The notes beneath the pieces are model-generated. The model ran no database searches. It worked only from the letters and a program-made list of their open reading frames with translations, and was not told the DNA's origin. This document shows, one piece after another, positions 21,023 to 24,868 of a DNA stretch of 64,000 nucleotides. Position numbers and translations under genes: made by a program. How positions within the stretch are numbered: the stretch's first letter is position 1; each line of letters opens with the position of its first letter. Origin of the DNA: Lentimicrobium saccharophilum (lineage in GTDB: Bacteria; Bacteroidota; Bacteroidia; Bacteroidales; Lentimicrobiaceae); contig NZ_DF968183.1 in assembly GCF_001192835.1 (NCBI RefSeq), forward strand, positions 434,001 to 498,000. The letters run 5' to 3'.

Positions 21023-23383
21023 ATGAAGCGAATTTTAAACTGCTTTACTTACATTGTTGTATTGATGGCAATTGTGCCTTCCGGGCAGCTTTCCGGACAG
21101 AGTTATCTGCCGTTTTCACAGAGCAATTACAGCGGTTCTGCAGGGTTGTTGCTGCAACCTGCCTCCATTGCCGATAGCCGTTACCGTTTCGACATGACAG
21201 TTTTTGGTGCTGAAATGATGGCAAACAACACTTTTGTTGCGCTTGACAAAAAGACTTTTTTTAAGCCATCTACCTGGGAGGACGAGGATTTCGGCGATAA
21301 GTACGTTTTCCGGAAGTATGACGGAAAAGATAAATACGGGTTTGTGAGTGCAGGTGCTATTCTGCCATCATTCATGATCAACCTTGATGAGAATTCAGCA
21401 ATCGGATTCACTTCAAGGACACGAGTGATGTTAAACATCGACAATATCACGGAAGACCTGGCACAGCTCTTCAGCGAAAGATTTGATTACGAACCGCTGC
21501 TCAGGAAAACGCTCACCAATGCAAACTTCAGTATGCAGGCAAACTCCTGGGCTGAGTTCGGATTTACCTATGCCACGGTAATTCTGAATAAACAGAAACA
21601 CTTTCTGAAAGGAGGCGCTACCCTGAAATACCTGCAGGGGCTGAGTTCAGGTTATGTGTTTATCAATGACCTCACATACAGGCTCGACAGCCCTGATACA
21701 TTGTCACTGTTTCAGTCAAAGGTCAACTATGGTATCTCTGAAACATTTGATGAGGAGGGTAATCCAGCATTTAAAAGCCTTCCCGGGCCGGGGATCGGCT
21801 TCGATCTGGGCCTGGTATATGAGTACCGGCCGGATATTGCTTCATTCACCTATTCCATGGACGGTAAAGACGGCCTGCTCAGGGGTGACAAGGATAAATA
21901 TCTCTTCAGGCTGGGAATCTCTCTGCTTGATTTTGGCAGCATCAGGTACAATAAAGGTTTTTACAGCCAGGATTTTAATGCTGACATAAGGGATTGGTAT
22001 ATTCATGGCATGGAAATTAATTCGATTTCAGATATCAATGATACCCTGCGTGCCCGCTTCGGATTCAATGATAATACCAATGAATCATACAGCATGGGAC
22101 TTCCAACGTCCCTGAGCCTGCAGGCGGACTTCAATCTTGGAGCAGGTTTTTACCTGAATTTCACGCCTTTCTTCGCCCTTCGTAAGGGAACCAATATGAT
22201 ATCGAAAACACATTACGTTACGTCCTATACATTTACACCCCGTTACGATCACAAATGGTTTGGATTTGCGATACCAGTTCATCTGGATCAGTTTAACCGC
22301 TTTAATGCAGGTCTCAGCCTGCGCCTTGGTCCCGTATGGGTAGGATCCAATACCATTATCAATAACAGGTTGGCAAAACAGAGTTATGCGCTTGATGGCT
22401 ATATAATGTTCAAGATTCCTGTGTACCGCAGTGTAAAGGGCGACAAAGACAATGACGGTGTCAGCGATGAGAATGATCTGTGTCCCGATGTGCCTGGCAC
22501 CTGGGAGATGCGCGGATGCCCTGATGCTGATGCTGACGGCATCCCTGATCATCTGGACGATTGTCCGTATGATGCCGGAACCGAAGCGCTCAGGGGGTGC
22601 CCTGACCGCGATGGCGACGGAATTGCAGATAAGGACGACCAGTGTCCTGACCATCCCGGGCTTCCCCAATATAACGGATGCCCCGATTCAGATGGTGATG
22701 GCATTGTCGATCATCTTGATGAATGCCCTGACCAGCCGGGCTCTGCCAGTCTGAATGGCTGTCCCGACCGTGATGGAGACGGTATTCCCGACCGTTCAGA
22801 CCTCTGTCCGGATACACCCGGAAAACCGGAATTCGGTGGCTGCCCGTTTGCAGATTCTGACAAAGATGGCATCCCCGATGAAGACGATGACTGCCCGACG
22901 ATTCCTGGTCCGAAAGAATTTATGGGCTGCCCGGATACTGACGGCGATGGCATTTCTGACAAATATGACCTCTGTCCTACCATAGCCGGTGTACCCGAAA
23001 ATAATGGCTGCCCGGCAATCAAAAAGGAAGAAAAAGAAATCATCGACAGGGCATTCTCCAACCTGGAATTTGAATCCGGTAAGTCGGTAATCAAACCTGT
23101 TTCATACCCGGCACTCAACGAACTGGCTGAATTGCTCGTTCAAAAACCGGTATGGAAGGTGCAGCTTTCAGGCCATACGGATAATACAGGGAAACCGGAA
23201 TCCAATATGACCCTTTCGAAAAACAGGACGCAGGCAGTTAAGGATTACCTGATCAGCCGGGGTGTCGAAGAATACCGCATCCGCACAGAATGGTTCGGAC
23301 AGGAACGTCCCGTTGCCGATAACAAAACAGCAGCCGGTCGTCAGAAGAACAGAAGGGTTGAAATGAAGATTGTCTTCGATTAA
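21023..23383 (+). CDS. DUF5723-like outer-membrane protein with TSP3 repeats and OmpA domain
   Basis: 786 residues. A signal peptide (1-26, ending LSGQS) leads into a region of about 430 residues rich in aromatic, alternating strands, matching the DUF5723 barrel-like family of Bacteroidota. Residues about 473-665 hold seven thrombospondin type 3 calcium-binding repeats of the form DxDGIxDxxDxCP. Residues 670-786 are an OmpA C-terminal domain with LSGHTDNTG, NMTLSKNRTQAVKDYL and NRRVEM, expected to bind peptidoglycan. The protein would link the outer membrane to the cell wall. Codon use agrees with neighbours. No clear promoter: TACCTTTA near 20990 is one base off. Confidence 0.9.
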   Translation: MKRILNCFTYIVVLMAIVPSGQLSGQSYLPFSQSNYSGSAGLLLQPASIADSRYRFDMTVFGAEMMANNTFVALDKKTFFKPSTWEDEDFGDKYVFRKYDGKDKYGFVSAGAILPSFMINLDENSAIGFTSRTRVMLNIDNITEDLAQLFSERFDYEPLLRKTLTNANFSMQANSWAEFGFTYATVILNKQKHFLKGGATLKYLQGLSSGYVFINDLTYRLDSPDTLSLFQSKVNYGISETFDEEGNPAFKSLPGPGIGFDLGLVYEYRPDIASFTYSMDGKDGLLRGDKDKYLFRLGISLLDFGSIRYNKGFYSQDFNADIRDWYIHGMEINSISDINDTLRARFGFNDNTNESYSMGLPTSLSLQADFNLGAGFYLNFTPFFALRKGTNMISKTHYVTSYTFTPRYDHKWFGFAIPVHLDQFNRFNAGLSLRLGPVWVGSNTIINNRLAKQSYALDGYIMFKIPVYRSVKGDKDNDGVSDENDLCPDVPGTWEMRGCPDADADGIPDHLDDCPYDAGTEALRGCPDRDGDGIADKDDQCPDHPGLPQYNGCPDSDGDGIVDHLDECPDQPGSASLNGCPDRDGDGIPDRSDLCPDTPGKPEFGGCPFADSDKDGIPDEDDDCPTIPGPKEFMGCPDTDGDGISDKYDLCPTIAGVPENNGCPAIKKEEKEIIDRAFSNLEFESGKSVIKPVSYPALNELAELLVQKPVWKVQLSGHTDNTGKPESNMTLSKNRTQAVKDYLISRGVEEYRIRTEWFGQERPVADNKTAAGRQKNRRVEMKIVFD

Positions 23384-23390
23384 TGTTAAT

Positions 23391-24395
23391 ATGACTTTAC
23401 GGATTACACCTGATCCTGAACGTTGCCGGGCTGTCGGTTTATTGACCGGCACGCTCAGGATCAGGCAATCATTTTATGAAAGAAGGTTTCTTAAAGCCCG
23501 GATGCATGAAGAAACCAAACTATGCATGCTGTTTGGTTCAGTGGCAATCTGCCATCAGACACACGCTTTGCACAGCGCAAAAAAAAACCTGTCCGGGTGG
23601 GATTATATGGAAGCTGTTTTTTTTAGCCTTGCGGAGCAAGGATCATGGCTGCTTGAACCCACCGTAGTTGCAAAAACTAATAAAAATGTCATCAGGAAGG
23701 CATTGCTGTCTGCCTTCAGCGACAACGGCCGTGCCGGAGATTCCTCGCTCGACAGGATTGACGAGCGGGCTGAATTATACCACGACCTTTGTAAAATCAT
23801 TACAAGACAATACGGAGGCAAATTCGGTCAGCTGCTCGCAGGTAGTGAAGGATTGTTAATGAACAATGGCTGTGGATTTTATGAATTGCTTGCTGCTTCA
23901 AAAGCTTTCGGCGATCCGGTTAGAAAAAAGTCCTCATTTCTTTTTAAACTGCTATATGATTCCGGCCTTTATACTGTTAATGATCCGGAAAACTTTGTAC
24001 CCATCATGGATTATCACATGCAACGCGTTTTGCTCAGGATGGGTTGCCTGATCATCAATGACAGGATACTTGAGGAAAAACTGATCAGCGGGGCTGAGAT
24101 GCAAAGCGATGAGCCTGTTAGAAGTGCATGTATTGAAGCATTAAAAATTATTGCCATTCATTCTGGTTTTCAACCCTGGGTCATGAATGATTTCTTCTGG
24201 CCTTTAGGTCGCTCCTGCTGCAATGAAACCACCCTTTGTTCCGATCATTTCTGTATAAAAAAGCCCTGCACATTTCATCTGATGACGGAAATCAGCGACC
24301 ACAGCGGGTGTGCTTTTGCATCCTGCTGCCTTGGAAAAAACGATTTGAAATACAGGTCATTCCGCGAACCCAATGTTAAAACACACTATTACTGA
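23391..24395 (+). CDS. HhH-GPD-like / queuosine-salvage-like protein with cysteine cluster
   Basis: I use the ATG at 23391 (334 residues); an upstream TTG overlaps the OmpA gene. By eye the middle resembles the queuosine 5'-phosphate N-glycosylase family (DUF2419, Qng1): LSGWDYMEAVFFSLAEQG, then RAELYHDLCKIITRQYGGKF, and FVPIMDYHMQRVLLRMG where Qng1 has an Asp-Tyr-Arg motif. The end recalls the endonuclease III iron-sulfur loop: LGRSC followed by C-x6-C-x4-C-x4-C spacing (EndoIII has HGRYTC and C-x6-C-x2-C-x5-C). Three more Cys follow. Both families are helix-hairpin-helix glycosylases, so a base- or nucleoside-cleaving enzyme with a metal cluster is my best guess. Its stop overlaps the HIT gene start by one base. 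Confidence 0.45.
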   Translation: MTLRITPDPERCRAVGLLTGTLRIRQSFYERRFLKARMHEETKLCMLFGSVAICHQTHALHSAKKNLSGWDYMEAVFFSLAEQGSWLLEPTVVAKTNKNVIRKALLSAFSDNGRAGDSSLDRIDERAELYHDLCKIITRQYGGKFGQLLAGSEGLLMNNGCGFYELLAASKAFGDPVRKKSSFLFKLLYDSGLYTVNDPENFVPIMDYHMQRVLLRMGCLIINDRILEEKLISGAEMQSDEPVRSACIEALKIIAIHSGFQPWVMNDFFWPLGRSCCNETTLCSDHFCIKKPCTFHLMTEISDHSGCAFASCCLGKNDLKYRSFREPNVKTHYY

Positions 24396-24868
24396 TGAAA
24401 AAAGACTGCCCATTTTGCGATTCACATGTCACTGCGCAGATATTTGCCACCGAGAACGGCTTTTCCGCATTATACAACCATTCTCCCATACTTCCCGGAC
24501 ATACCCTTATCATTCCGGACAAACACACCGGCAGCTTGTTTGAACTCAATGAAGAAGAAATATCAGGCTTTTTTACTTTTGCCCGTAAGGTTACTTCGTT
24601 TCTCACGGACATCTACCGGTCAGATGCCTATGACTGGTCGTTGCAGGAAGGCGTAGCTGCAGGACAAAGTGTGGATCATCTTCACCTGCATATTATTCCA
24701 CGTAAGCCGGGCGATCTTCCCGAAGGGGTGGAATGGTATGGAAAACTCCATGAGCAGCAATCCCTTGCATTGGACGACTCCGAAAGGATTGTTCTGAGCG
24801 AACGGGAGTATCAGGAAATCAGCCGGGCAATGAAGGAGAAATGGGACTCATTTGTCAGTCATCAGTAA
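24395..24868 (+). CDS. HIT family hydrolase
   Basis: 157 residues with a histidine triad, DHLHLHIIPR (His-x-His-x-His), near residues 90-99, and the N-terminal NHSPILPGHTLIIPDKH strand-helix typical of HIT proteins. A pair of cysteines (CPFCDSHV) at the N-terminus suggests the zinc-binding form. The family hydrolyses nucleoside phosphoramidates or dinucleoside polyphosphates. The ATG shares one base with the stop of the HhH-like gene (TGATG), so the two are translationally coupled and probably act in the same nucleotide-related task. Convergent with a DMT transporter gene. Confidence 0.92.
   Translation: MKKDCPFCDSHVTAQIFATENGFSALYNHSPILPGHTLIIPDKHTGSLFELNEEEISGFFTFARKVTSFLTDIYRSDAYDWSLQEGVAAGQSVDHLHLHIIPRKPGDLPEGVEWYGKLHEQQSLALDDSERIVLSEREYQEISRAMKEKWDSFVSHQ

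Follow-up and report, generated by a model that had tools for sequence, protein, structure and literature searches.

Glycosylases of the helix-hairpin-helix (HhH) superfamily share a fold and differ in base recognition and accessory elements. In endonuclease III glycosylases the G-x-G hairpin of the helix-hairpin-helix precedes the lysine, and the cysteine loop follows the consensus C-x6-C-x2-C-x5-C. In the NKxD motif of GTPases, an Asp-to-Asn change alters base recognition from the guanine type to the 2-oxopurine type. Qng1 (PF10343, DUF2419; PDB 7u07, 7u91, 7ugk) has D298 and W302 as active-site residues, as given in a section of PMC11592518, a paper citing the Qng1 work, and K199 and D231 of StQng1 are the residues mutated in PDB 7u5a and 7ulc, by the entry titles. 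The archaeal 8-oxoguanine glycosylase AGOG (PF09171; PDB 1xqo, 7olb) sandwiches the base, in Pab-AGOG, between W212 and F146, and its Q24, K149, D174 and D208 contact N1, N2, O6 and N7 (passages of PMC9638937); these residues were mapped onto Pa-AGOG numbering by offsets. AGOG Asp218 is structurally equivalent to OGG1 Gln315, which bonds N1 of 8-oxoguanine (a passage of PMC3397491). The reductive urate pathway, as presented in PMC12507026, comprises XdhD, YgfK, SsnA, HyuA, YgeW, YgeY and YgeX, and the main text of that paper has no mention of 'glycosylase', 'nucleosid' or 'Bacteroid'. Within the portions of the literature covered on DUF2419 and iron-sulfur, on HhH-GPD nucleosidases and on DNA glycosylases with Se-dependent xanthine dehydrogenase (XDH), the family presented here is not described.

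The window (the whole 64,000-nucleotide stretch of Lentimicrobium saccharophilum DNA analysed) carries a gene pair encoding an HhH-GPD/Qng1-like protein and a HIT-family protein (Table 1). The initial annotation had reported a 334-residue frame overlapping the HIT gene via TGATG, and the overlap is real; the closest relatives of the 334-residue protein have the same start site. By profile the HIT protein is ordinary (PF01230, E 1.5e-21, 77.3 bits against a cut-off of 21.5). PADLOC matched it to ThsC, a HIT-family model, which was taken as general HIT kinship, and at E<=0.01 returned no match for the glycosylase-like protein.

Table 1. Gene pair and landmark residues, in window positions
Feature	Position	Strand	Extent or basis
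HhH-GPD/Qng1-like protein with conserved cysteine loop	23391..24395	+	334 aa plus stop, ATG start
Codons K179 to K186 (K179, F183, K186)	23925..23948	+	alignment with StQng1, Pa-AGOG
Codons D207-Y208, catalytic-type Asp	24009..24014	+	alignment with StQng1 D231, Pa-AGOG D172
Codons N266 to W270, base-edge and stacking positions	24186..24200	+	alignment with StQng1 D298/W302, Pa-AGOG D218/W222
Cysteine loop C276, C277, C283, C288, C293, candidate [4Fe-4S] site	24216..24269	+	conservation
Second conserved metal-type group H304, C307, C313	24300..24329	+	conservation
TGA stop of glycosylase-like gene	24393-24395	+	sequence
TGATG, overlap of glycosylase-like stop and HIT start	24393..24397	+	1 base common to both ORFs
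HIT-family protein, 157 aa, His triad HLHLHI	24395..24868	+	PF01230 and sequence

A scan of genome_contigs yielded 58 loci encoding family members, 51 titled Bacteroidota and seven titled as other phyla. Such titles are not always reliable, because the protein of a locus titled Chlorobiota (L036) is identical to that of a genome (G457) placed in the window's order. Across the class as a whole the family is uncommon, since a class-wide draw of 395 genomes found it in a single one, that of the window; plasmids had no match to the window protein or to a Qng1 fragment. The alignment comprised 58 rows, namely the window and 57 of the 58 loci, L058 being left out for its broken frame. Invariant or nearly so are C54-H55-Q56-T57, E125-R126, D175, K179-K180, D207-Y208-H209, C219, R244, D267, the loop G273-R-S-C276-C277...C283...C288...C293, and H304, C307 and C313. 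The conserved Asp-Tyr pointed out in the initial annotation corresponds to D207 and Y208, each present, like K179 and D175, in 58/58 rows; F183 occurs in 50/58 and K186 in 57/58. Position 266 is Asn in 56/58 rows and His in L055 and L057, and position 270 is Trp in 48/58 and Tyr in 10/58. Two loci from MAGs titled Micrarchaeota and Patescibacteria (L022 and L057) pair on the tree with support 100/98 and have none of the sought neighbour genes; their titles may reflect either gene transfer or misbinning.

An AlphaFold2 model built from the 58-row alignment had a pLDDT of 96.2 and a pTM of 0.93. All eleven Foldseek matches at E<=0.001 were Qng1/DUF2419 chains (best 2.8e-9), with MutY, AGOG and endonuclease III behind them. 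In VIA-align the top seven rows were all Qng1, led by 7uk3 (Z 26.1, with 274 residues aligned at 3.1 A), and 1orn, a MutY chain and AGOG followed at Z 14.8-14.9, the value being 14.9 for both 1orn and the MutY chain. The fold, as modelled, is common to Qng1 first and to DNA glycosylases second. By profile comparison, the family against two Qng1 fragments gave a probability of 93 (E 3.4e-7), and against four AGOG fragments hhalign gave a weak link, with a probability of 25 (E 7.5e-4). At E<=1, PF10343 (Q_salvage) matched 52/58 members (best 7.5e-10), PF00730 (HhH-GPD) 6/58 (best 0.0029), PF09171 (AGOG) 6/58 (best 0.0072) and DUF2400 2/58; at E<=1.7e-5, estimated to lie near the cut-off, PF10343 matched 22/58. 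For the window protein itself PF10343 is the sole Pfam match at E<=1, at 18.5 bits, under the gathering cut-off of 25, and no NCBIfam model matches at E<=1. Q_salvage at E<=1e-8 was found in 0/247 phylum genomes, which is no proof of absence since it was found in 0/14 controls too. Cas9 rows (E about 0.1) and ribosomal rows (E 1.9) in the searches were taken as chance.

Thus the Qng1/DUF2419 likeness of the body and the HhH-GPD kinship, both proposed in the initial annotation, have stood, and the profile check for an unrelated fold found none. The superfamily fold and the Lys/Asp catalytic-type pair are both present, and the protein is a member of the HhH glycosylase superfamily. By these tests the family is not a member of Qng1 but is new within the Qng1/AGOG/Nth superfamily. 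With Qng1 it shares the fold (Z 26), a Glu-Arg pair, the catalytic-type Lys and Asp, and the Trp of the C-terminal helix. It differs in its added conserved cysteine loop and H304/C307/C313 and in having Asn at the D298 position. Its carriers have the QueA family and often a Se-dependent XDH.

K179 and D207 align with StQng1 K199 and D231. StQng1 D298/W302 correspond to N266/W270 in a helix that was aligned by eye, with support from the AGOG comparison, the two Qng1 residues being those named in the cited section of PMC11592518. In Qng1 and the family alike, the base-edge residue (D298 or N266) stands seven and the Trp (W302 or W270) three residues ahead of a shared Gly. AGOG K140, F144, K147, D172, D218 and W222 align with K179, F183, K186, D207, N266 and W270; AGOG differs from the family, which has Asn at the D218 position and extra conserved cysteines. 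As read from these alignments, the putative pocket is preserved as in Qng1 and AGOG, bar the change of the base-edge Asp to Asn. By analogy with the GTPase motif, Asn266 may favour a 2-oxopurine; an amide can also read 8-oxoguanine, because OGG1 has Gln.

Following L-G-R-S is the cysteine loop C276-x6-C283-x4-C288-x4-C293. Among rows covering these positions C276, C283, C288, C293 and H304 are each present in 57/57, C277 in 56/57 (the remaining one is X), and C307 and C313 in 56/56. The LGRSC and C-x6-C-x4-C-x4-C pattern of the initial annotation is therefore both present and conserved in the covering rows. Its suggested likeness to the endonuclease III loop stood in part: the loop is compact and conserved and, as in endonuclease III and MutY (PDB 1orn, 2abk, 1kg2), which have the same fold, at least four conserved cysteines lie in a C-terminal loop after the helix bearing the base-edge position, but the spacing is x6/x4/x4 instead of x6/x2/x5. 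The family further differs from these enzymes in its extra conserved Cys/His residues and in lacking the GxG hairpin, K179/K180 lying within FGDPVRKK with no such hairpin before K179 in the sequence. In all, up to nine cysteines are conserved (C54, C219, C276, C277, C283, C288, C293, C307 and C313). The loop probably holds a [4Fe-4S] cluster that would shape the C-terminal end of the fold. The further conserved residues beyond the loop, H304, C307 and C313, were not visible to the initial annotation.

The HIT gene lies downstream within 7 bases in 11/58 loci, where, of the 58, three lack downstream sequence and L012 offers just 216 bases of it. On a first tree of 56 rows (L055, L056 and L058 left out), the 11 HIT-adjacent loci and the window form one side of a branch with support 89/99. 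In a larger tree, built quickly from 81 rows that include 25 order-genome proteins, L083 has HIT adjacent yet falls outside the HIT clade; 16 of these 25 proteins are identical to genome_contigs proteins, so the two sets overlap. HIT is one gene away in L027, L081 and L082, and in L027 the gene between is a 5'-nucleotidase, which in L033 is the second gene after SsnA. The HIT clade and L027 share a recurring block of HIT, EamA, YigZ and DnaA genes, so the HIT link may be purely positional. HIT as a family-wide partner was rejected on the count of adjacent loci. What survives of the two-enzyme salvage or repair unit once proposed is its setting in nucleotide or base metabolism; HIT is not the general partner, being found mostly in one clade, and the recurrent partners elsewhere are Se-dependent XDH, SsnA and a CoA-binding protein. 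An OmpA-like protein, whose repeats are rich in aspartate as judged by eye, is encoded at window positions 21023-23383, ending 7 bases upstream of the gene; its homologue adjoins the gene in 9 loci including the window, every one with HIT adjacent.

Neighbours were counted by tblastn at 1e-10 over the 58 loci. Se-dependent XDH is a neighbour in 19/58 (with the TIGR03311 cut-off at 830 bits, two representatives scored 877 and 880), an SsnA-like amidohydrolase in 13/58 (two representatives scored both fell under the SsnA cut-offs), and a CoA_binding_2 protein in 12/58. XDH and SsnA enclose the gene, with all on one strand, in 11 loci, and in 4/58 the gene neighbours a hydantoinase-like gene and two PLP enzymes. 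The XDH/SsnA label changes 9 times on the 56-row tree, at least 5 of the changes forced by well-supported branches, and 6 times on the 81-row quick tree, at least 3 so forced; the association is thus not confined to one local clade. When the 33 loci that have 3 kb or more of flanking sequence on both sides were sorted, 9 had XDH or SsnA, 9 had HIT adjacent and 15 had neither.

Co-occurrence was counted in 295 genomes of the order, with limits of E<=1e-10 for the family, E<=1e-200 for XDH and E<=1e-80 for SsnA-like proteins. The family occurs in 27 genomes (carriers), XDH in 71 (62 over the cut-off) and SsnA-like proteins in 79. XDH is found in 19/27 carriers against 52/268 others (Fisher p 1e-7) and SsnA in 19/27 against 60/268 (p 8e-7), by a test that ignores relatedness. 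Eight of the 27 carriers have no XDH at E<=1e-200. Four of these have no match at 1e-40, three of the four being at least 94% complete; one (G487) has an XDH piece beside the gene at a contig end; and the remaining three have scores typical of ordinary xanthine dehydrogenases, such matches being found in 5/14 control genomes too. The tie is not obligatory, since 7/27 carriers have neither XDH nor SsnA at the limits applied, and not exclusive, since the family is missing from 52/71 XDH genomes. Among genomes of the window's genus, G000 and G607 have the family, XDH and SsnA, and G399 and G511 have none of the three.

YgfK (TIGR03315) scores over its curated cut-off in 62/71 XDH genomes, among them that of the window; the reductive urate pathway, as outlined in PMC12507026, is therefore likely present in many of them. 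At E<=1e-50 it is matched in 71/71, and in 7/14 controls with 1 over the cut-off; the weaker matches may be other flavoenzymes. The idea that the protein stands in for the dearomatising reductase YgfK was rejected, YgfK itself being present in the XDH genomes. The window's genome has SsnA (C1:1053165-1054418), XDH (C1:1054814-1057360) and YgfK (C1:1068140-1071136) on another contig, within about 18 kb. Two stretches were taken from this region, C1:1043000-1062900 (L065) and C1:1060000-1078000 (L144). When the family was compared by tblastn with the 19.9-kb XDH/SsnA stretch, no gene remnant was found between XDH and SsnA: 277 rows were returned up to E 10, the best (E 0.002) far from the gap and two short rows at E >6 touching it.

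Since some relatives lie inside anaerobic purine-breakdown gene sets, the protein may cleave a purine base from its sugar. Carrier genomes or operons share with the reductive urate pathway, as PMC12507026 describes it, Se-dependent XDH, SsnA-like, hydantoinase-like and YgfK genes. With roughly even confidence for and against, we infer that the protein is an N-glycosidase which probably carries a [4Fe-4S] cluster and releases a purine base to be broken down anaerobically. Asp207 and Lys179 would form the catalytic pair hydrolysing the N-glycosidic bond of a purine nucleoside or nucleotide; the free base would then enter anaerobic degradation via Se-dependent XDH, YgfK, SsnA and hydantoinase, and a cluster in the cysteine loop would shape the C-terminal end of the fold. 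Members of the window's clade have the gene apart from the purine operon, and there it would probably be co-translated with HIT, whose presumed role is that of a nucleotide hydrolase. A narrower and rather doubtful proposal, resting on the GTPase analogy, is that the family represents a new class of purine nucleosidase, with an iron-sulfur DNA-glycosylase fold working in anaerobic catabolism and the single exchange of the base-edge Asp of Qng1 and AGOG for Asn266 shifting recognition from guanine-type bases to a 2-oxopurine (such as xanthine or urate). If this nucleosidase reading is true, nucleosides or nucleotides would give direct entry to the reductive urate pathway. If the protein is indeed such an N-glycosidase, a repair-type fold carrying a metal cluster would serve metabolism and not DNA or queuosine nucleotides, some Bacteroidales would have a candidate nucleoside-to-base step for anaerobic purine breakdown, and residue 266 would offer a one-residue test of base choice in a glycosylase fold.

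An activity on DNA is unlikely. The protein would then excise an oxidised or deaminated purine (8-oxoguanine, hypoxanthine, xanthine) from DNA, as a further cysteine-cluster branch of OGG/AGOG/Nth. This reading fits the structural matches (Z 14-15) to endonuclease III, MutY and AGOG, the AGOG-like pocket residues and H55-Q-T57, which we take to resemble the QQT segment of MutY. The Pfam families PF00730 and PF09171 are each touched by 6/58 members at E<=1, and the amide of OGG1 Gln315, at the equivalent place, bonds N1 of 8-oxoguanine according to the same passage of PMC3397491. Qng1, however, is nearer than any DNA glycosylase (Z 26 vs 15), the hairpin ahead of K179 is missing from the sequence, the gene lies repeatedly inside purine-degradation operons, and the window's genome has two other HhH-GPD genes. 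Charge points both ways: the window protein (pI 8.3, net charge +4) is not against DNA binding, but the family medians (pI 6.3, net charge -3) are.

That the best fold and profile match is Qng1, with PF10343 at E<=1.7e-5 in 22/58 members, raises the reading of a divergent Qng1 acting on queuosine-5'-phosphate in queuosine/7-deazaguanine salvage. This we regard as very improbable, because the QueA family (PF02547) of de novo queuosine synthesis is present in 27/27 carriers, so salvage should not be needed (with room left for recycling), and because N266 takes the place of StQng1 D298, an active-site residue by the cited section of PMC11592518; no queuosine gene occurs among the neighbours scanned, and the window protein stays under the Pfam cut-off. 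A protein that is no glycosylase in vivo, serving as a metal-cluster protein, redox sensor or accessory factor of the Se/Mo hydroxylase system, would suit the up to nine conserved cysteines and the company of XDH and the small CoA-binding protein. It is decidedly unlikely, given that both catalytic-type and most pocket residues are invariant or nearly so and that 52/71 XDH genomes manage without the family.

The CoA_binding_2 protein (about 150 residues) lies just upstream of the gene in L007, L020, L021, L025, L026, L028, L029, L033, L034, L038, L040 and L054, and in six of these 12 loci no XDH or SsnA is in view. An adjacent PLP enzyme pair (about 417 and 490 aa) lies ahead of XDH in L020, L032, L045 and L052. 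At 1e-5, no NCBIfam row for the L052 pair (for the first enzyme, among the best 25 of 38 matches) bears the name diaminopropionate ammonia-lyase, so these PLP enzymes may be unnamed last-step enzymes. The purine cluster of the window's genome also holds a threonine-synthase-like PLP enzyme and a 495-residue PLP enzyme, by likeness to L052, and its YgfK and a MocA-like nucleotidyltransferase (by eye) are about 11 kb from the SsnA, XDH and PLP genes. In one clade (L042, L046, L047, L048 and L051) XDH lies upstream of the gene, and a penicillin-amidase-family protein and a fused MeaB/methylmalonyl-CoA-mutase-type protein are encoded downstream.
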